This document shows, in pieces, positions 1,720-50,179 of a DNA stretch of 64,000 bases. The stretch spans positions 476,859 through 540,858 of the forward strand of contig NZ_JH376797.1 in NCBI RefSeq assembly GCF_000234095.1, given 5' to 3'. Each line of letters opens with the position of its first letter. Within the stretch, counting starts at the first letter, position 1. Below the pieces are notes generated by a model that made no database searches, had not been told where the DNA came from, and saw nothing but the letters and a program-made list of their open reading frames with translations. The DNA comes from Centipeda infelix ATCC 43532. GTDB taxonomy: Bacteria; Bacillota; Negativicutes; Selenomonadales; Selenomonadaceae. The position numbers were made by a program, and so were the translations under genes.

Positions 1720-3108
1720 TTACTCTTTGACATAAGCGGTGATCGGCTTATAGTGTTTCTGGAAGAACTCCTCTGCGACCTGCGGGAAGAGTGCATAGGA
1801 GAGGACATCCTCATCCGACGGGTTGATATAACCCTTGTTCTTGAGCTCCTCTTTGAACTCTGCGAACGTCGTTGCTTTTGCATCTTCGATGGAGCAGTCA
1901 TCAATGATGTCCTCAGGAGCGATACCGAGAGTGTCAGTCAGGAACTTGCGATCAATCTCAACAGGTGTCCTGCCAAACTTGCCGCGCGCGAGGTCTTTGA
2001 ACTCGGTCGGTACCATCTTGTAGCGCTCACCAGTCATGACATTGAAGGTTGCCATCGTACCAACAATCTGCGAGGACGGCGTAACAAGCGGGGGATAGCC
2101 AACATCCTTGCGAACACGCGGCATCTCATCCAGAAGATCCTGATACTTGTCTTCCATGCCCGCTTCCTTGAGCTGATTCGCAAGGTTCGAGAGCATACCA
2201 CCAGGAATCTGGAAGTCAAGAACATTCGGGTTCACATCAAAGTAGCCTTTGAGGTTGAAGGTCTTGATAAGATCCTGCTTAACCCCAAGGAAGTACTTGG
2301 AAATTGGCGTCATTGCCTGACGGTCAAGCCCTGTATCGCGCTCCTCCCCCTCAAGCATTGCCACCATTGTTTCCGTACACGGCTGTGAAGTGTCGCTGGA
2401 GAAGGGAGCAAGTGCAGTATCAATGATATCAACACCTGCTTCGACCGCCTTCAAATAGGTTGCATGGCCAAATCCGGAGGTGCAGTGCGTATGAAGGTCA
2501 ATGGGAATCTTTACCGCAGCCTTAAGCTTCTTAACAAGATCCTCTGCCACATACGGCTTCAGAAGTCCCGACATATCCTTGATGCAGACGGAATGGCAGC
2601 CCATCTTTTCAAGCTCAACCGCCAGCTCAACAAAGCTCTCATTCGTGTGAACAGGGCTGATCGTATAGACCAGGCAGCCCTGAACATGTGGTTTCTCAGG
2701 GCACTTGAGTGCTGCATCAATCGCGACTTTGAGGTTACGAATATCGTTAAGTGCATCAAAGATGCGGAATACGCCGATACCATGCTCCGACGCCTTCTGA
2801 ACGAACTTCTCTACCACGTCGTTGGAATAGTGGTTATAGCCGAGCAGGTTCTGACCACGGAGAAGCATCTGAATCGGCGTCTTGAGGTTTTTCTTCAGAA
2901 TATCCAAGCGCTCCCACGGATCCTCATCAAGGAAGCGCAGGCAGCTATCAAACGTAGCACCACCCCATGCTTCAAGAGAATTGTAGCCAATGGCGTCGAG
3001 CGCCGCGAGCTGCGGAAGCATGTCCGAGATTCTCATGCGGGTTGCCAGCAGTGACTGGTGACCGTCACGGAGGACAGTCTCAGTGATTTTGACCGGATTC
3101 TTTGCCAT
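1720..3108 (-). CDS. oadA: Oxaloacetate decarboxylase alpha-type carboxyltransferase (no biotin domain)
   Basis: 462 residues. It is a carboxyltransferase TIM barrel with RDGHQS (14-19), RGQN (84-87), IKDMSGL and the metal-binding DLHTHCTSG motif, followed by the conserved PYC_OADA region. It stops at about residue 462 without the C-terminal biotinyl (MKM) domain, so the biotin carrier must be a separate protein, as in Veillonella/Selenomonas sodium-pump decarboxylases and two-subunit pyruvate carboxylases. The product could equally be annotated PycB. The start at 3108 is chosen because AAGGAGAG lies 9-10 nt upstream. An upstream in-frame ATG at 3162 sits at the predicted transcription start and cannot be used. 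It is a monocistronic unit with its own promoter and terminator. Confidence 0.92.
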   Translation of the reverse strand: MAKNPVKITETVLRDGHQSLLATRMRISDMLPQLAALDAIGYNSLEAWGGATFDSCLRFLDEDPWERLDILKKNLKTPIQMLLRGQNLLGYNHYSNDVVEKFVQKASEHGIGVFRIFDALNDIRNLKVAIDAALKCPEKPHVQGCLVYTISPVHTNESFVELAVELEKMGCHSVCIKDMSGLLKPYVAEDLVKKLKAAVKIPIDLHTHCTSGFGHATYLKAVEAGVDIIDTALAPFSSDTSQPCTETMVAMLEGEERDTGLDRQAMTPISKYFLGVKQDLIKTFNLKGYFDVNPNVLDFQIPGGMLSNLANQLKEAGMEDKYQDLLDEMPRVRKDVGYPPLVTPSSQIVGTMATFNVMTGERYKMVPTEFKDLARGKFGRTPVEIDRKFLTDTLGIAPEDIIDDCSIEDAKATTFAEFKEELKNKGYINPSDEDVLSYALFPQVAEEFFQKHYKPITAYVKE

Positions 3109-3166
3109 AAAAGAACACTCTCCTTGATTAAAAGTATAATCAAAAATTATATAACCCAACATCTAA

Positions 3167-3206: not shown

Positions 3207-3229
3207 AAAATTCACATATTTTTACACAG
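3207..3229. repeat. attL core (23-bp direct repeat)
   Basis: Begins AAAATTCACATA and ends TTTACACAG, identical to 39370-39392. The bases on either side differ between the two copies, so the core is exactly 23 bp. It lies between the oadA promoter and int, the expected place for an attachment site. Confidence 0.93.
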
Positions 3230-3278: not shown

Positions 3279-3314
3279 TTTGTCTACCGTTTGTCTACCA
3301 TGTCACTTGTCTAC
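3279..3314 (+). promoter_or_regulatory. Integrase arm-type sites, left end
   Basis: TTTGTCTACC occurs at 3279-3288 and again at 3290-3299 (11-bp period), with a third TTGTCTAC at 3307-3314 inside the 3' end of int. The same pair with the same 11-bp period occurs at the other end of the prophage (39211-39231). These are likely binding sites for the integrase N-terminal arm-binding domain. Confidence 0.7.
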
Positions 3315-4508
3315 GAAACGGGCGAAGATGGCGGCAGTTTCACGCTGCATCTCCTCGGTATCATGCGCATAAAGATTTTGCGTGATAGATACGTCCGCAT
3401 GACCGAGACGGGCGGCGACATCAATGGGGTTCGCTCCGGCTTCAATGAGCCGTGTCGCATGCGTGTGCCTAAAACTGTGCGAGTTCAGCCCGTGCGCAGA
3501 TAGGAGACGGCGCAGCGAAGCATAGCATATGGGGAGCCCGAAACGGTCAGAGCAGACAAGCGGGCGGCGTACCATGCCTTCAGGCGCGGCTTCAATTTTT
3601 GGCGCGGTGTAGACACGGCGATCAGGACACTCATAGACAATCTGATAGGCATTTCCAAGCCGCAGTTCATTTCGTGCCTGTATCGTTTTCCATTGCCGGA
3701 GCGCATTGACCATCCCGCCATCGATGTAGATCTTACGCGTGCTTGCGCTGCTCTTGGGCACTGAAAAGAACATGCGGCATCTGCGTCCAGCACTTGACAG
3801 TTGACGGCAGATATGGATAGTACTGTTTTGGAGATCCACATCGTCCCATGTCAGCCCCAGCACTTCACCGATACGCGCACCTGTATGGTAGGCGAGCCGC
3901 AGAAGTATGTGATACTTATGTCCGATAGGGCATTTCTTGAGGAGCGCCGCGAACTGCTCCGGCGTGATGATGCTCCGCTCAACGAGCTTCTTTGGTGCCG
4001 AGCGGGGGATGCTGATACCTGCACAAGGGTTAGATGTAATAATCTCTGCTGGATATACGGCGTATTTCAACGCGTTTGAAAGAACCGTACGGGAGAGTGA
4101 TAACGAGTTTTTTGAAAGCCCCTTTTCCGCAAGCCTCTTCATCCAAGAATCGACATCGCGGGGACGCAGGTCTTGGACATAAATATCGCCAAGGATCGGA
4201 TTGATCCGCACACGGATCGCGGACTCATAGTCGTAATGCGTCCCGCGTGAGACGTTTGGACGCATGACGTTCTCAAGCCATGCAGCGAGATAGTCGCGCA
4301 GCTTCACCCGCTCGCTCGTGATCCCGATGTTGCCGGACTTCCAGTCTGCATAAGCAGCGACACCTGCGTCATACGCCTCCTGCTCCGTCGCATAGCCGCC
4401 CTTCTCGATTGCTTTGCGCTTTCCCGTCATTGGGTTCTTTCCTGCGTCAAAGGAATAGGAGTAAGTCTTACCTCGTTTGCGGGTGCGGATAGTTGCTTTC
4501 TTTGCCAT
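3303..4508 (-). CDS. int: Tyrosine site-specific integrase
   Basis: 401 residues, usual for phage integrases of the Tn916/Lactobacillus phage type. There is an N-terminal arm-binding region (about 1-60, rich in basic and aromatic residues), a SAM-like core-binding domain (about 65-165) and a C-terminal catalytic domain. The catalytic set is visible: R212 (TGARIGE), K259, H344-x-x-R347 (HSFRH), H370 (LGHAD) and nucleophile Y380 (NLYAH). The ATG at 4508 has GGAGG upstream. It catalyses integration and, with an excisionase, excision at the flanking 23-bp repeats. It is the outermost prophage gene, right beside attL, and is read in the same direction as the repressor. Confidence 0.96.
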   Translation of the reverse strand: MAKKATIRTRKRGKTYSYSFDAGKNPMTGKRKAIEKGGYATEQEAYDAGVAAYADWKSGNIGITSERVKLRDYLAAWLENVMRPNVSRGTHYDYESAIRVRINPILGDIYVQDLRPRDVDSWMKRLAEKGLSKNSLSLSRTVLSNALKYAVYPAEIITSNPCAGISIPRSAPKKLVERSIITPEQFAALLKKCPIGHKYHILLRLAYHTGARIGEVLGLTWDDVDLQNSTIHICRQLSSAGRRCRMFFSVPKSSASTRKIYIDGGMVNALRQWKTIQARNELRLGNAYQIVYECPDRRVYTAPKIEAAPEGMVRRPLVCSDRFGLPICYASLRRLLSAHGLNSHSFRHTHATRLIEAGANPIDVAARLGHADVSITQNLYAHDTEEMQRETAAIFARFVDK

Positions 4509-36941: not shown

Positions 36942-37008
36942 ATAGTTGAATCGACTGGGGGAGATGTTTTGTGGCGTCTCCTCTAGTTGGTTTAAGGAAG
37001 TATGGAGC

Positions 37009-37620
37009 ATGCTTGAGAGGGAACTATGCAATTACGCAGAAAAACTTGCCAATTTTATTCGGGAAAAAAACTTTGCACCAGTTGCCAAAAGGAAGCCATA
37101 CTATCACATGGGAGCAACAATAACTGACTCTATACTACAGGCAGGTTTAAATTATCATCATGTAGTCTATCCGCGTGTTCTTAAACTCCTCACAAAATAT
37201 CCGGACTACAAGACGACATGTGATTTCATTATTTTAATGCAAGTGGTTCCTCTTGGAGAACTTATCGCTTGGAAAAACTCGAAGAAGTTACAACGCATTA
37301 GTGGGTTAAGCTGGTTCTTATATAGCAATGGTATCGAAAATGAAGATCAGCTTGCAAAATGGCTTGATATAGAAGAAAACATAAGTCAGCTAAGAAGGGT
37401 TGATGGCGTTGGACCTAAAACCGTTGATTATCTAAAAATGCTTTCTGGCGGTCAGGCGATTGCTATAGATCGTCACCTATTTGTATTCTTGGAGTTGGCA
37501 GGGATACCCCATTGCTCATACCAAGATGCCGCTCTCATATATGGTAAAGCGGCAGGGGTGTTGGATATGAGTCAATATGAGCTGGACAAGCAAGTGTGGC
37601 TGTATATGGCTAAAACTTAA
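37009..37620 (+). CDS. HhH-GPD DNA glycosylase-like protein (accessory gene)
   Basis: 203 residues. The HhH core LRRVDGVGPKTVDYLKM (Lys of the EndoIII-type GVGxKT) and the following AIAIDRHLFVFL (catalytic Asp) are the HhH-GPD signature. The C-terminal Cys cluster of EndoIII/MutY is absent. It should excise a base or act on modified or damaged DNA. It lies after the lysis genes with its own terminator and is clearly more AT-rich than the structural genes, a typical accessory ('moron') position. The start at ATG 37009 (AAGGAAG upstream) is preferred; a TTG at 36946 would add 21 residues. Confidence 0.75.
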   Translation: MLERELCNYAEKLANFIREKNFAPVAKRKPYYHMGATITDSILQAGLNYHHVVYPRVLKLLTKYPDYKTTCDFIILMQVVPLGELIAWKNSKKLQRISGLSWFLYSNGIENEDQLAKWLDIEENISQLRRVDGVGPKTVDYLKMLSGGQAIAIDRHLFVFLELAGIPHCSYQDAALIYGKAAGVLDMSQYELDKQVWLYMAKT

Positions 37621-37636
37621 AATTTGATGTTTGTGT

Positions 37637-37672
37637 ATAAGCCCCGGGGCTACGGCTTCGGGGCTTATTTTT
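37637..37672 (+). terminator. Terminator after the glycosylase gene
   Basis: Ten-pair stem (37637-37646 with 37659-37668; AAGCCCCG core) and a T-rich tail. It isolates the glycosylase gene, and the late operon, from the promoter that follows. Confidence 0.85.
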
Positions 37673-37704: not shown

Positions 37705-37751
37705 AAATATGTATATAAACTATTGACAAATATGTATATACCTGCTATAAT
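37705..37751 (+). promoter_or_regulatory. Perfect sigma-70 promoter with direct-repeat operator
   Basis: TTGACA at 37723-37728, exactly 17 bp, then TATAAT at 37746-37751: full consensus. AAATATGTATATA occurs at 37705-37717 and again at 37728-37740 (23-bp period), upstream of and inside the promoter, so a bound repressor would block it. It drives the next three small genes independently of the phage late genes. Confidence 0.85.
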
Positions 37752-37801
37752 GTAATCAAGATAAAGGTCAGGCGAAAGCCCAGAAAGAGGAGGAAATCAA
37801 A

Positions 37802-38074
37802 ATGAAGGCAGAGAGAAAGTTCAAGGGAGTCAAGGCGGCGGTCGGAGAGATGCGCGGCTGCAACCGCTACGACGGCACGTACCTCGAGGTTCACTACGAT
37901 GTGGACGAGGACGAGGTGTATACGCACTTCCACTCCTCCTTCGGCGGGAACTCGTGGACGGTGTACCACGATTCAGCGGTTATCCCCGTCGGAAAATATT
38001 CGAGCCCCGTCAAGATGGCGGAGCTCAAGGAGGACATCCGCCGAGCCATCGCACGGCGGGCAGAGGTGGCGTAA
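37802..38074 (+). CDS. Acidic small protein, unknown function
   Basis: 90 residues. MKAERKFKGVKAAVGEMRGCNRYDG then a strongly acidic segment YDVDEDEVYTHFHSSFGG and a C-terminal helix MAELKEDIRRAIARR. First gene of the independently promoted right-end unit; RBS GAGGAGG. The acidic, DNA-mimic-like surface is a possible clue but not proof. A perfect hairpin starts at its stop codon. Function not recognised. Confidence 0.6.
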   Translation: MKAERKFKGVKAAVGEMRGCNRYDGTYLEVHYDVDEDEVYTHFHSSFGGNSWTVYHDSAVIPVGKYSSPVKMAELKEDIRRAIARRAEVA

Positions 38075-38107
38075 CATCTAAGAGGGGCGCAAGCCCCTCT
38101 TAGATGT
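38074..38107. other. 15-bp perfect hairpin with GCAA loop
   Basis: ACATCTAAGAGGGGC and GCCCCTCTTAGATGT with loop GCAA, starting on the last base of the upstream stop codon and ending 16 nt before the next ATG (RBS CAGGAGG). With no T-run it is unlikely to end transcription; it may set relative expression or protect mRNA ends. Confidence 0.5.
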
Positions 38108-38122
38108 ACACAGGAGGATATC

Positions 38123-38467
38123 ATGAAAAAGAACAAGCAGATTTACATGAACCCTGCACTTGCGGGGCTCGAAGCGGACGTGAAGGAGGCAGGGACGAGC
38201 TTTTCCGCACGTCTCGGCGAGATCGTCGAGCGGTATCAAATGATGCTCGATCTCGAAGCACTGCCAGAGTTTTCGGAGGACGAAACGATGATCCTTAGTG
38301 AGGCAATCTGCGGCAGCGTAATCGACCGCCGCAAGATTCGCGGACTGTATCTCGATGTTTTGGACACGGCAATAGGAACAAAGGAGGAGCGCGATGCCCT
38401 GAGCGCGAAGATCGAGAACCTGACAGCAGGGCAGCGCCTCAAATTGATTGAGACATTGGGACAATGA
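38123..38467 (+). CDS. Ribbon-helix-helix-like small regulator
   Basis: 114 residues. The start KQIYMNPALAGLEADVKEAGTSFSARLGEIVERYQMML reads as a beta strand, helix, turn and second helix, the ribbon-helix-helix pattern, followed by a helical C-terminal part. Such proteins often bind direct repeats and repress their own operon, which would fit the AAATATGTATATA pair upstream. Its stop overlaps the next gene's start (AATGA). Assignment is tentative. Confidence 0.55.
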   Translation: MKKNKQIYMNPALAGLEADVKEAGTSFSARLGEIVERYQMMLDLEALPEFSEDETMILSEAICGSVIDRRKIRGLYLDVLDTAIGTKEERDALSAKIENLTAGQRLKLIETLGQ

Positions 38468-39177
38468 AAAAAGGAGTTTCAACGAAACAGCCCCGCACCT
38501 GCCGAGAGTGCGGGGTTGTTTTTGAGGGTGGCCCCCGTGCCTGGTATTGCCCGAAATGCCGCGCGAAACGAAGAAAAGAGCAGGCGGCACGGTATAGACG
38601 CCGCCGCAAAGACAGGGTATCCCTTGTACTTGGTGAAAGTGTCGGAGAGTGCGTCGTGTGCGGAAAGGCATTTGTTTATGTATCCGCCCGCCAACAGTAC
38701 TGCCCTGACTGTGCAAAAGGGGCGTGGAAAGCATCCGATCGGCAGCAGGGGCTGGAGTGGTATCACAAGCACATGGATTTAGGCAAGAGGAGGGAGCGCC
38801 GGAAAGAGCGTTATGTAAAGAAACCTCCTACAAGTTGCCCCGTGTGTGGGAGTAAACTGGAACGATCGCAAAAGAGCTACTGCACAGAGCGTTGCGCCCG
38901 CATCGCGCAGTCCTATCAATCTGCCCGGTGCTATTATCTGCAAGGCAAGCGAAAATCTCTGCCTACATGGGAGGACTGGATCCGGCAAGAAGAAAACAGG
39001 CTGGCTCGTGGATGTAAAGTGTGCGGCAAAAAGATAGGGAGCATGAGGCACAGTTACTGCTCGCCAGAATGTAGCAAGATCGGCAAGACGTACAGTACGG
39101 CGCTGTCGCATTACCTTGCGGGGACGCGAAGTGAGCCCCCGTCGTGGGAAGACTGGATAAAACTGCATAAGAAATAG
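38464..39177 (+). CDS. Tandem zinc-ribbon protein
   Basis: 237 residues. Four CxxC...CxxC-type units: CRECGV...CPKC (about 13-33), CVVCGK...CPDC (about 63-82), CPVCGS...CTERC (about 125-143) and CKVCGK...CSPEC (about 184-202). The last two are near-duplicates of about 55 residues (SYC, SYQSA/TYSTA, then PTWEDWI/PSWEDWI), a tandem domain repeat. It is highly basic. It is the last gene before attR. Function not recognised; nucleic-acid binding is likely. Confidence 0.65.
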   Translation: MKKGVSTKQPRTCRECGVVFEGGPRAWYCPKCRAKRRKEQAARYRRRRKDRVSLVLGESVGECVVCGKAFVYVSARQQYCPDCAKGAWKASDRQQGLEWYHKHMDLGKRRERRKERYVKKPPTSCPVCGSKLERSQKSYCTERCARIAQSYQSARCYYLQGKRKSLPTWEDWIRQEENRLARGCKVCGKKIGSMRHSYCSPECSKIGKTYSTALSHYLAGTRSEPPSWEDWIKLHKK

Positions 39178-39215
39178 AGGGACAGCGTTTCGTGCGCCGT
39201 CCCCTCTGTTTTTGT
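39176..39215 (+). terminator. Prophage right-end terminator
   Basis: A long imperfect stem (left arm from about 39176, right arm CGCCGTCCCCTCT ending about 39207) is followed by GTTTTTG. It ends the right-end accessory transcript just before the arm sites, limiting readthrough into the host his region. Confidence 0.65.
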
Positions 39216-39231
39216 CTACAATTTGTCTACC
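39211..39231 (+). promoter_or_regulatory. Integrase arm-type sites, right end
   Basis: TTTGTCTAC at 39211-39219 and TTTGTCTACC at 39222-39231: the same sequence, strand and 11-bp period as the pair at the left end. In the excised circle these flank the attachment core on both sides, as P and P' arms. Confidence 0.7.
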
Positions 39232-39369
39232 GTGCCTACAAAAACCTTTGAAAAAAGCTCAAATCATCATTCGTGAAAGATTCTCCTAAAAATTACCGTG
39301 AAAGCGCACGATTGCTGGGATTACTGCGAATACCAACAACAAGAAAAAACATTGTAATTCAAGGCTTGA

Positions 39370-39392
39370 AAAATTCACATATTTTTACACAG
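39370..39392. repeat. attR core (23-bp direct repeat)
   Basis: Identical to 3207-3229. On the phage side it is preceded by AAGGCTTGA, whose extension AAGGCTTGAAAA (39361-39372) is the reverse complement of TTTTCAAGCCTT at 3232-3243, the phage-side flank of attL. Host sequence resumes at 39393. Confidence 0.93.
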
Positions 39393-39413
39393 CTCTCACG
39401 ATAAAAGTGCTAG

Positions 39414-39457
39414 CCCCTCCAACTATCCATAATTACCATTATGGATAGTTGGAGGGG
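39414..39457. terminator. 20-bp perfect hairpin at the end of the his operon
   Basis: Arms 39414-39433 and 39438-39457 are perfectly complementary with a four-base loop. They lie 17 nt after the hisIE stop (minus strand). The T-run on the minus side is interrupted (CTAGCACTTTTATC), so it may be an RNA-stabilising or weak bidirectional terminator rather than a classic one. It is host DNA, just outside attR. Confidence 0.6.
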
Positions 39458-39473
39458 GAAATCACTGTAAAAA

Positions 39474-40178
39474 TTACATATCCGGTCGCATTCCTGTTTT
39501 TCCGGCAAACTTATGATAGTTGCCGCCGTTATGTCTCCGCTTCAGTTCTTCGAGCAAATCCTCCGGTGTCATATTGTGGTACGCGAGCAAAACCAAGCAA
39601 TGATACCAGAGATCTCCCATTTCATAGAGCACATCCTCACGGATGTTATTTTTAGACGCAATAATTGTCTCTGCTGTTTCCTCGCCAAGCTTTTTCAAGA
39701 TCTTGTCCTGGCCCTTATCAAAGAGATAATTCGTATAGGAACCTTCGACCGGATGCAGACGGCGGCTCTGAATCACCTGATAAAGATCGGACAGAATCTC
39801 TGCAAGCGGCATCTCATCTCTCGCATCAACAGGAATAATACTGTTTTCACTGGCAGGATAGAGTTTTCTACCGTTAAAGCATGAATATGTACCCGTATGA
39901 CAGGCTACACCCGTCTGTTTGACACGCAGCAGAATCGTATCACCATCACAGTCATAGGAAAGTTCCTGCACGCGCTGCACGTTTCCGGAGGTTTCGCCCT
40001 TTTTCCACAGCTTCTTGCGGCTGCGGCTGTAGTACCATGCGAATCCCGTTTCCATCGTTTTCTCAAGGGATTCACGGTTCATGTACGCGAGCATGAGGAC
40101 TTGATTGTTTTCTTCCTGTACTATAACAGGAACAAGTCCGTGTTCGTCAAAATTCACCATTGAAATATCAACACTCAT
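39474..40178 (-). CDS. hisIE: Bifunctional phosphoribosyl-AMP cyclohydrolase / phosphoribosyl-ATP pyrophosphatase
   Basis: 234 residues, steps 2 and 3 of histidine synthesis in one protein. The N-terminal HisI part has [32 protein letters not shown] and the Zn/Cys segment [20 protein letters not shown]. The C-terminal HisE part has [28 protein letters not shown] and LLEELKRRH. Last gene of the operon; its ATG shares the A of the hisF stop (TGATG). A long hairpin follows. Confidence 0.95.
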
Positions 40179-49243: not shown

Positions 49244-50179
49244 TCAAGGCAGAAAATGTAGTGTAATATTTTCCTCATGCCCTGTGATTCGGTCATGCGG
49301 CACAGATATACGAACAATTTTTTTGTCTTCAGGCTCCGTGTCAGAATCTGTGATTTCTTCAACGGTAGCCTCAGCAGGCCGACCGCTCAGTTCATATCGG
49401 ACAATTTGCCCCGGATAGATCCTATTCATATCCTCCGCAGAAATCTCGGCTTCAATCCAGCAGTTCTCCACAAGATCGAGTGTGAGAATCGAAGCTCCAC
49501 TGTCGATAAGGTCACCTTTTTTTGCGTGGATCTTAGAGACCACACCTTCTCGCACAGCAAAGAAGCCTATTGTCTCCGCATGATCGCGTGCCTTTGCAAG
49601 GGTCTCCTCTGACTTTTTCAACTGTTCCTCTGCTGCCTTGAGTGCCGCAGCATTTGGTACGGTCATTTGTCCCCTTCCCATCGTCAGCGCGTTCTTTTCC
49701 TGTTCATATGCCGCAGCTGCCTCATTTCTTTTGGCTGCACTGACTGCCCCCATCTCATAGAGTTCGTTCATACGCTCCATACGCATTCGTGCGGCATCCA
49801 TCCCTTCGGAGGATGCAGGTGTATTCTGAGATGCCACAGCTGCGCCGTATCGAATCTGTTCGACATTCCTTTGTGCAAGCTCGACATTCTTTTGCAAGCG
49901 CGCGAGTTCTTCATCCGAAAAGACACTTTGTACCGTAACAAGGAGCATCCCCGCTGTTACATGGTCACCCTCCGAAATATGAAACTCTTGAATGACAGAT
50001 GTATTCCCTGCCTGCAACTCACTTTGTTCATAGACGATGCGTGCATTTGACAGCGTGAACGCATTCGATGCGTCCATTTTATGCAGCAGAATAAACGACG
50101 CACAGAAAACGATAAGCAGCAGACCGATAAGGAATAGGTACACTCTCTTTTTTAGCAGCTCGGTGATGTCATTTTCCAT
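49244..50179 (-). CDS. HlyD-family periplasmic adaptor, solitary
   Basis: 311 residues. An N-terminal membrane helix (about 14-35: YLFLIGLLLIVFCASFILL), a lipoyl-like SVIQEFHISEGDHVTAGMLLV, a long coiled-coil hairpin (about 80-190), then FFAVREGVVSKIHAKKGDLIDSGASI and a beta-barrel with YPGQIVRYELSG. It would bridge an inner-membrane transporter and an outer-membrane channel. No transporter or TolC gene is adjacent. ATG 50179 with AGAAGGG; a longer upstream frame is unlikely. Confidence 0.85.
   Translation of the reverse strand: MENDITELLKKRVYLFLIGLLLIVFCASFILLHKMDASNAFTLSNARIVYEQSELQAGNTSVIQEFHISEGDHVTAGMLLVTVQSVFSDEELARLQKNVELAQRNVEQIRYGAAVASQNTPASSEGMDAARMRMERMNELYEMGAVSAAKRNEAAAAYEQEKNALTMGRGQMTVPNAAALKAAEEQLKKSEETLAKARDHAETIGFFAVREGVVSKIHAKKGDLIDSGASILTLDLVENCWIEAEISAEDMNRIYPGQIVRYELSGRPAEATVEEITDSDTEPEDKKIVRISVPHDRITGHEENITLHFLP

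Follow-up and report, generated by a model that had tools for sequence, protein, structure and literature searches.

A prophage operon of Centipeda infelix with a ribbon-helix-helix protein of predicted AcrIE10 fold: a probable acr-aca-like anti-defence unit

Results

A three-gene unit occupies the right end of a prophage

The window analysed here, a stretch of 64,000 nucleotides from Centipeda infelix ATCC 43532 (contig NZ_JH376797.1), carries a prophage of about 36 kb that includes genes for a terminase, a portal protein and an amidase. A perfect 23-bp direct repeat (AAAATTCACATATTTTTACACAG) stands at both ends of the prophage, at 3207–3229 (attL) and, in the same letters, at 39370–39392 (attR), and a phage integrase gene on the minus strand (3303–4508; Pfam PF00589, E 2e-22) adjoins attL. 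Positions 38900–40100 were compared with 13 other genomes of the genus: in 11 of these the longest match was chromosomal DNA starting at query positions 471–523, at or just beyond attR (similarity to the chromosome of the genus restarts at 39370 or slightly past it), and the remaining two gave short matches only. The three-gene unit (37705–39177) forms the extreme right end of the prophage, between the lysis genes and attR, and is separated from the gene upstream by an intrinsic terminator (37637–37668, plus strand) with a 14-pair stem and a T run. An earlier note on this DNA had described a self-contained accessory cassette at the right end of the prophage; this description holds, except that the note placed its end at 38467 and the unit runs on to 39177. 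The gene ahead of the terminator (36946–37620, plus strand; 224 aa), which lies between the last gene of the lysis region and the unit, shows a weak helix-hairpin-helix / 8-oxoguanine-glycosylase-like signal.

All three genes are on the plus strand. Gene 1 (37802–38074), a presumed cargo (anti-defence) gene, codes for a neutral protein of 90 aa (pI 6.90, net charge about zero) and not for the acidic partner postulated in the earlier note; it is the product of gene 2 that is acidic (pI 4.8). Gene 2 (38123–38467) encodes a ribbon-helix-helix (RHH) protein of 114 aa with a predicted AcrIE10 fold, a presumed autorepressor and possible Cas7 binder. Gene 3 (38464–39177), which overlaps gene 2 by ATGA, encodes a basic zinc-ribbon protein of 237 aa (pI 9.9), confirming that a zinc-ribbon gene comes last; four CxxC...CxxC / CxxC...CxxxC units were recognised in it by eye, and it matched phrog_1271 (E 7e-11) and DZR_2 (E 4e-5, short of its Pfam cut-off). 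A perfect 15-bp hairpin that lacks a T run stands between genes 1 and 2 (38074–38107, plus strand) and may govern the relative amounts of their products. Gene 1 had no significant match in Pfam, PHROGs, NCBIfam or PADLOC and none in the phage collection; among 100 relatives it was present in one, the window itself, and the one further relative found is the first gene of an Acidaminococcus unit (L021), which stands in the same position and is 37% identical. The predicted structure of its product (pLDDT 78.4, from 2 sequences) had no PDB match better than E 0.34.

A consensus promoter contains a putative operator

The unit is preceded by a promoter of the form TTGACA-17-TATAAT (37723–37751, plus strand; −35 at 37723–37728, −10 at 37746–37751) that agrees with the consensus at 12 of 12 positions and has a TG before the −10, in keeping with the perfect promoter noted earlier. 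Two such 12/12 sites are present in the 64 kb, compared with 0.010 expected per window under a model of local dinucleotide composition. The other site, a sigma-70 promoter on the minus strand (3195–3167), lies about 12 nt outside attL and is directed away from the prophage; since only 5 nt separate its −10 from the start of a host carboxylase-like ORF (1720–3162), the start of this ORF may be annotated too far upstream.

Two exact copies of a 13-bp repeat, AAATATGTATATA, are located at 37705–37717 and 37728–37740 (plus strand), 23 bp apart from start to start, and are putative operator copies; the second one covers the last base of the −35 and otherwise lies in the promoter spacer. These repeats, which had been reported with the same spacing, have no further exact copy in the window. 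With up to two mismatches allowed, five matches were found against 0.54 expected, a number reached in 0 of 100 shuffles, and an exact 13-mer repeat at a distance of 10–60 nt occurred in 0.15% of 2000 simulations of a 150-nt block. In a looser test that counts near-identical 9-mer pairs, the promoter region of the window was unremarkable (28 of 100 shuffles were as high), because this region is A+T-rich; 9-mer direct repeats were clearly in excess (at most 1 of 100 shuffles) in seven of 22 loci, the window not being among them. Repeats recur every 22–23 bp in the window and in seven further units (L005, L018, L019, L021, L046, G100 and G190), and every 12 bp in Paenibacillus-type units and some streptococcal units; to judge from the sequences, this recurrence suggests that several RHH dimers may bind side by side.

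A dyad test, devised after the counting of 9-mer repeats, was applied to the hand-picked cores of 24 distinct promoters (a duplicate 25th row was dropped and ties were broken toward 13). The best dyad centre was found 12.5–14 nt past the start of the −35 in 21 of the 24 promoters, the exceptions being the window (15), L019 (14.5) and L024 (15.5), and in nine promoters the dyad had only three of six pairs. Across 15 representatives the mean number of pairs was 3.47 of six at centre 13, with the runner-up centre reaching 2.53, and the summed best dyad score was 67, compared with a mean of 56.0 and a maximum of 64 for shuffles (0 of 1000 as good). An inverted repeat inside the core promoter is present across the family, the window being one of the three exceptions in placement, with five of six pairs at centre 15 and four of six at centre 13.

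A small leader hairpin, GGC-GAAA-GCC, is predicted downstream of the promoter (37771–37780, plus strand), and a similar one is predicted in the sister prophage (L005). Part of the units have in common a two-hairpin 5' leader that is absent from the window's unit. In hairpin 2 of this leader (10 sequences) 98.9% of the pairs were formed, with 15 cells changed on both sides, and the covariation score exceeded all 500 shuffles; the number of pairs with two-sided changes (five) was unremarkable, being equalled in 94 of 500 shuffles. The leader model (R1, E ≤0.01) matched 16 places in 29 sources, of which 13 were distinct and most came from its own building set. As the 300 Negativicutes genomes yielded it only once (G099) and the window lacks it, the structured leader is a trait of part of the family only. 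A search of Rfam with 11 loci, one of which (L001, 3.3 kb) spans the window's unit, returned nothing that reached the gathering threshold. On one viral contig (L045/L059) the promoter core and leader are duplicated about 1.4 kb apart (L059 249–309 and 1620–1681, minus strand), with the second copy preceding a different, unrelated gene, and the repressor may therefore serve a small regulon.

The 114-aa protein combines an RHH motif with an AcrIE10-type domain

The 114-aa protein matches phrog_14350 (E 6e-27), a family without a named function. Its AlphaFold2 model (pLDDT 91.8) has helices at residues 11–23 and 27–44, and the C-terminal half is predicted to be folded (pLDDT of 92–98 per 10 residues over residues 31–110). 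In VIA-align the model matched AcrIE10 chains over 109–110 residues (rmsd 2.4 at Z 12.0; identity about 22–23%) with Z 11.8–12.0, and with this aligner values below about 13 can reflect an arrangement common in helical folds. The next match was CopG RHH (Z 5.1, residues 1–44 only), which supports the RHH-like character previously assigned to the second gene. Foldseek likewise returned AcrIE10 (E 2.5e-3, probability 1.00). A profile built from 20 relatives of the 114-aa protein (A2) matched four PDB AcrIE10 sequences in hmmsearch with E-values of 1.8e-9 to 3.2e-9 (next match 0.11), the alignments covering profile positions 14–115 to 26–114 of 116. Model and profile thus concur, and since the AcrIE10 match also lies far above the next rows it appears to stand despite the moderate Z-scores. 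The structural and profile matches together indicate an N-terminal RHH motif followed by a C-terminal AcrIE10-type helical domain, and on this basis we regard a relation in fold between the two proteins as nearly certain. No match was obtained with the RHH model in a viral structure library (below E 1.0), with the window's RHH protein in plasmids or with the AcrIE10 stretch in phages.

AcrIE10, an inhibitor of type I-E systems encoded on Klebsiella plasmids, is represented in the PDB by entries 8ji9, 9m71, 9m7t and 9uer, the titles of which name, among others, a complex of AcrIE10 with Cas7 and another with DNA. It has been described as a butterfly-shaped dimer (PMC12740422) that sits in the groove of Cas7e and prevents the assembly of Cascade (PMC13131331); DNA binding is not mentioned in the available portions of the three papers that refer to AcrIE10. 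The likeness to the 114-aa protein comprises the fold over 109 of 114 residues, the profile match and the location on a mobile element, and on one Klebsiella plasmid AcrIE10 is encoded by the second gene, which overlaps a 90-aa gene, an order as in the window. The two differ in that their identity is only about 23%, that AcrIE10 is found on a plasmid and the 114-aa protein in a phage, that the window's operon has a third gene, and that AcrIE10 targets type I-E, whereas the RHH-bearing hosts have type I-C, with Cas7e (TIGR01869, E 0.001) present in 0 of 6 RHH-bearing genomes. Since its host is without a type I-E Cas7, we consider the 114-aa protein to be AcrIE10-like and not an AcrIE. Upstream of the Klebsiella AcrIE10 gene (L058 1900–2200) an inverted repeat, GTATGACATCTGTCATAC, was seen by eye, and the 90-aa gene ahead of it had no BLASTP similarity to gene 1 of the window.

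The 114-aa protein is likely to bind the promoter repeats, and autoregulation of the unit by this protein is very probable. Direct binding to Cas7, which is suggested by homology with AcrIE10, is a possibility that we hold with less than even confidence.

The putative regulator is constant and its neighbours are exchanged

Relatives of the RHH protein were found in phages and prophages of Negativicutes, Paenibacillus and Streptococcus. A tblastn search of the phage collection gave 15 records (eight from Streptococcus and seven from Paenibacillus), viral contigs contributed 25 loci, several of which duplicate phages of the remaining collections, GTDB contigs searched with one short pattern gave four loci, and 13 of 300 Negativicutes genomes contained an RHH match at 1e-5; one of the loci (L018) is from Pectinatus haikarae. 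In five streptococcal records the RHH gene is located past the lysin, toward the phage end, and in two Paenibacillus records it has the amidase/holin genes on one side and the integrase or repressor region on the other. In most loci up to three small co-directional genes, and at least one, stand ahead of the RHH gene, the exceptions being L033 (no such gene seen), L035 (genes of 204 and 399 aa) and G224 (a gene of 297 aa). In L035 (2200–4001) phosphoadenylylsulfate-reductase-like and ParB-like genes (by eye), which we take to be an IbrA/IbrB-like pair, stand directly before the RHH gene and behind the family leader. Three genomes with distant matches (G149, with three tandem copies, G157 and G224) fall outside the strong set of 10 used below; in G149 (L089) the three tandem genes lie beside an AAA-ATPase-like gene.

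In the sister prophage L005 the promoter and repeats are retained and the RHH protein is 79% identical to that of the window, though the first genes of the two units have no BLASTP similarity. The 35 cargo proteins from 23 loci, with the AcrIE10 plasmid included, formed 23 BLASTP clusters (E 0.001, a cut-off that leaves room for distant relations), two of which consist of larger basic proteins. In 19 of the 23 loci the promoter-proximal cargo protein had a pI of 5.2 or lower; the value was higher in the window, L021, L034 and the AcrIE10 plasmid. No known anti-CRISPR was detected among the cargo (10 proteins searched in Pfam and PHROGs, 8 in NCBIfam, 7 in PADLOC, and 4 families in the PDB), a null result bounded by the number of Acrs that those libraries contain, and nothing convincing was returned by PADLOC and NCBIfam. 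Matches of alignment A9 to hemagglutinin HA2 (E 0.027 and worse) were dismissed as chance. On mobile elements the family stands beside small genes that vary from locus to locus and share its orientation, a trait of Aca proteins, and by analogy a constant regulator with changing neighbours has the look of an acr-aca operon.

RHH genes and type I-C systems tend to occur together

The host has a type I-C locus (Cas1 and Csd2 by search; cas5, cas8c and cas4 frames by eye) and one CRISPR array of nine repeats and eight spacers. None of the eight spacers matches the prophage, so no argument from self-targeting can be made; the sole listed match in the window, of 12 nt, falls outside the prophage (49625–49636), and self-targeting was rejected.

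Cas7c (Csd2) was above its cut-off in 65 of 300 Negativicutes genomes, but in eight of the 10 with a strong RHH match (E<1e-20, a cut picked after the list was seen; hypergeometric p 1e-4, kinship ignored). The 300-genome draw was taken to be the same for both counts, as the handles and completeness counts agree. When all RHH matches were counted, Csd2 was present in eight of 13 genomes (p 0.0017, kinship ignored); it was missing from the strong-RHH genomes G070 and G135 and from the weak-hit genomes G149, G157 and G224. At the level of genera, five of six with RHH had Csd2 versus 32 of 97 (p 0.014). Among the first 100 relatives the corresponding numbers were five of six versus 30 of 100 (p 0.009) and, outside the window's own genus, three of four versus 18 of 86 (p 0.028), with kinship ignored in both cases. 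The Paenibacillus genome of L020 also has Csd2. The association with type I-C is confounded by kinship.

One related unit, in genome G100, is flanked by phage lysis genes on one side and on the other by a chromosomal gene that was taken by eye for rpsD, and belongs to a prophage that is also found in IMG/VR (L091). It consists of three TTATGSSCATAA dyads 22 bp apart, the promoter, an acidic 85-aa gene, the RHH gene and a gene for a 283-aa Cas7c homolog that overlaps the RHH gene by ATGA. In searches the homolog matched Csd2 (E 5e-71) as well as Cas7c chains of known structure (at E 2e-34 or better), and it shares 43% identity with the Cas7c of the same genome; no other cas genes were seen by eye in the 14 kb around the unit. 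It would be hard to explain, outside CRISPR interference, why a homolog of Cas7 should stand next to a protein related to a Cas7 binder, although this is a single case.

Discussion

We interpret the unit, with a probability of roughly 0.6, as an acr-aca-like anti-defence operon of the prophage that is probably directed against type I-C Cascade and is autorepressed by the AcrIE10-fold RHH protein; the anti-defence role by itself we consider probable. According to this model the strong promoter would fire upon entry of the DNA, and gene 1 (perhaps also gene 3) would provide an inhibitor of defence. The RHH protein would accumulate, presumably as a dimer, and occupy the repeats upstream of and inside the promoter, which would bring the operon down to its lysogenic level. 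By homology with AcrIE10, its C-terminal domain may in addition hold Cas7 subunits of the host and so block the assembly of Cascade. The early burst, the binding of Cas7c and the target inhibited by gene 1 are what we infer within this model; a consensus promoter with an internal operator would fit a burst at entry followed by autorepression at least as well as expression in the lysogen. The earlier note had suggested an anti-phage module, which is probably the wrong way round, as the evidence points to action against the defence of the host.

The RHH protein could instead be a dedicated autorepressor and nothing more, with neighbours that are accessory genes unrelated to host defence and serve lysogenic conversion, superinfection exclusion or morphology; the AcrIE10 fold would then be an old fold of RHH regulators, and Cas7 binding an invention of the Klebsiella branch. 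The well conserved RHH motif and operator placement would suit this explanation, as would the cargo, in which the searches revealed no known anti-defence relative, and the lack of a self-targeting spacer. Residues 45–114, however, are dispensable for DNA binding by RHH and are nevertheless conserved across phyla and align with AcrIE10, and the Cas7c homolog in the G100 unit and the co-occurrence with type I-C also speak for more than autorepression, so that we judge this explanation rather unlikely. Quite unlikely, in our estimate, is a variant of the anti-defence operon in which the AcrIE10-like repressor acts as a CRISPR-sensing switch and binds either the operator or the Cas7c of the host: free Cas7 would pull the repressor off the promoter and turn the operon on in proportion to the defence, and the Cas7c homolog of G100 would serve as a decoy and an internal set-point.

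The unit also resembles a type II toxin-antitoxin system, an option raised in the earlier note, with gene 1 as the toxin and the RHH protein as the antitoxin that autoregulates through the direct repeats. Gene order and an RHH autoregulator are alike in both, acr-aca and toxin-antitoxin operons are similarly built (PMC9410906), and the N-terminal RHH motif and the expected autoregulation are shared with RHH antitoxins/CopG. Close relatives, however, have dissimilar genes in the place of gene 1, no significant toxin family was found in Pfam, NCBIfam or PADLOC, and the 114-aa protein adds a C-terminal half that is predicted to be folded as in AcrIE10 and is not a flexible toxin-binding tail; a toxin-antitoxin function therefore appears most improbable. 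A selfish nuclease cluster, in which the zinc-ribbon and AP2/zinc proteins descend from homing endonucleases and the role of the RHH protein is limited to regulating them, would account for the resemblance of gene 3 to phrog_1271, annotated as 'HNH endonuclease', and for the AP2-like zinc proteins seen by eye in L018, G190 and several streptococcal units. It is very unlikely given that no HNH motif was seen by eye in gene 3, that the L021, L046 and G100 units showed no such gene, and that gene 1 and the AcrIE10 domain are left unexplained.

The acr-aca operon to which we liken the unit is a known arrangement. The operons described in PMC9410906 consist of variable small genes followed by the gene of a DNA-binding protein on a mobile element and have inverted repeats within the core promoter, as is the case here; they differ in that no proven acr is among the neighbours in the window's unit, where repression is a prediction. 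Aca1–10 are helix-turn-helix (HTH) proteins (PMC9410906), whereas the 114-aa protein combines an RHH motif with an AcrIE10 domain and is not a member of the HTH Aca families; aca11–13 carry HTH and AP2 motifs (PMC8934645). A dual Acr/Aca role, which homology suggests for the 114-aa protein, has been reported for AcrIIA1 (PMC9410906), AcrIIA15 (PMC13131331) and AcrIF24, of which AcrIF24 and AcrIIA1 use HTH domains, unlike the window's RHH protein. In archaeal viruses, RHH or HTH domains occur in some predicted early anti-defence proteins that were chosen by a shared strong promoter (PMC11065993); the accessible text of that paper states no relation of these candidates to AcrIE10, and they are archaeal, unlike the prophage studied here. 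No bacterial example of an RHH Aca was found in the open-licence literature among the matches listed, and RHH does not occur in the main text of PMC12026748. The statement that the module had not been described before thus needs dividing: the AcrIE10 fold family has been published, and no description of this type of operon was found in the searchable literature.

If our interpretation is correct, the AcrIE10 family would reach beyond Klebsiella plasmids into phages of Negativicutes, Paenibacillus and Streptococcus, and an RHH class would be added to the regulators of acr genes in bacteria. The phrog_14350 family would then be a marker gene that stands beside about 20 clusters of small proteins without an assigned function, and these clusters would become candidate anti-CRISPR or anti-defence proteins, to be considered first against type I-C systems.

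Anti-CRISPRs that copy Cas subunits are known from AcrIB3 and AcrIB4, the former of which mimics Cas5 (38%) (PMC13131331). The lone Cas7c homolog of G100 would share the mimicry of a Cas protein with them; it differs in that it is a Cas7, of type I-C, putative and located outside the window. Viral contigs gave eight Cas7c matches in total, one of which is the G100 prophage. In four others (L092, L093, L097 and L098) cas-like neighbours were judged by eye to be present, least surely in L092, and the remaining three (L094–L096) contain lone-looking Cas7c genes without an RHH match, which may represent another anti-CRISPR setting of viral cas7, unrelated to the first. The Cas7c homologs of L094, L095 and L096 are 293 aa long, and in L095 and L096 they are preceded, by eye, by a small acidic-looking gene and a short, possibly regulator-like gene.
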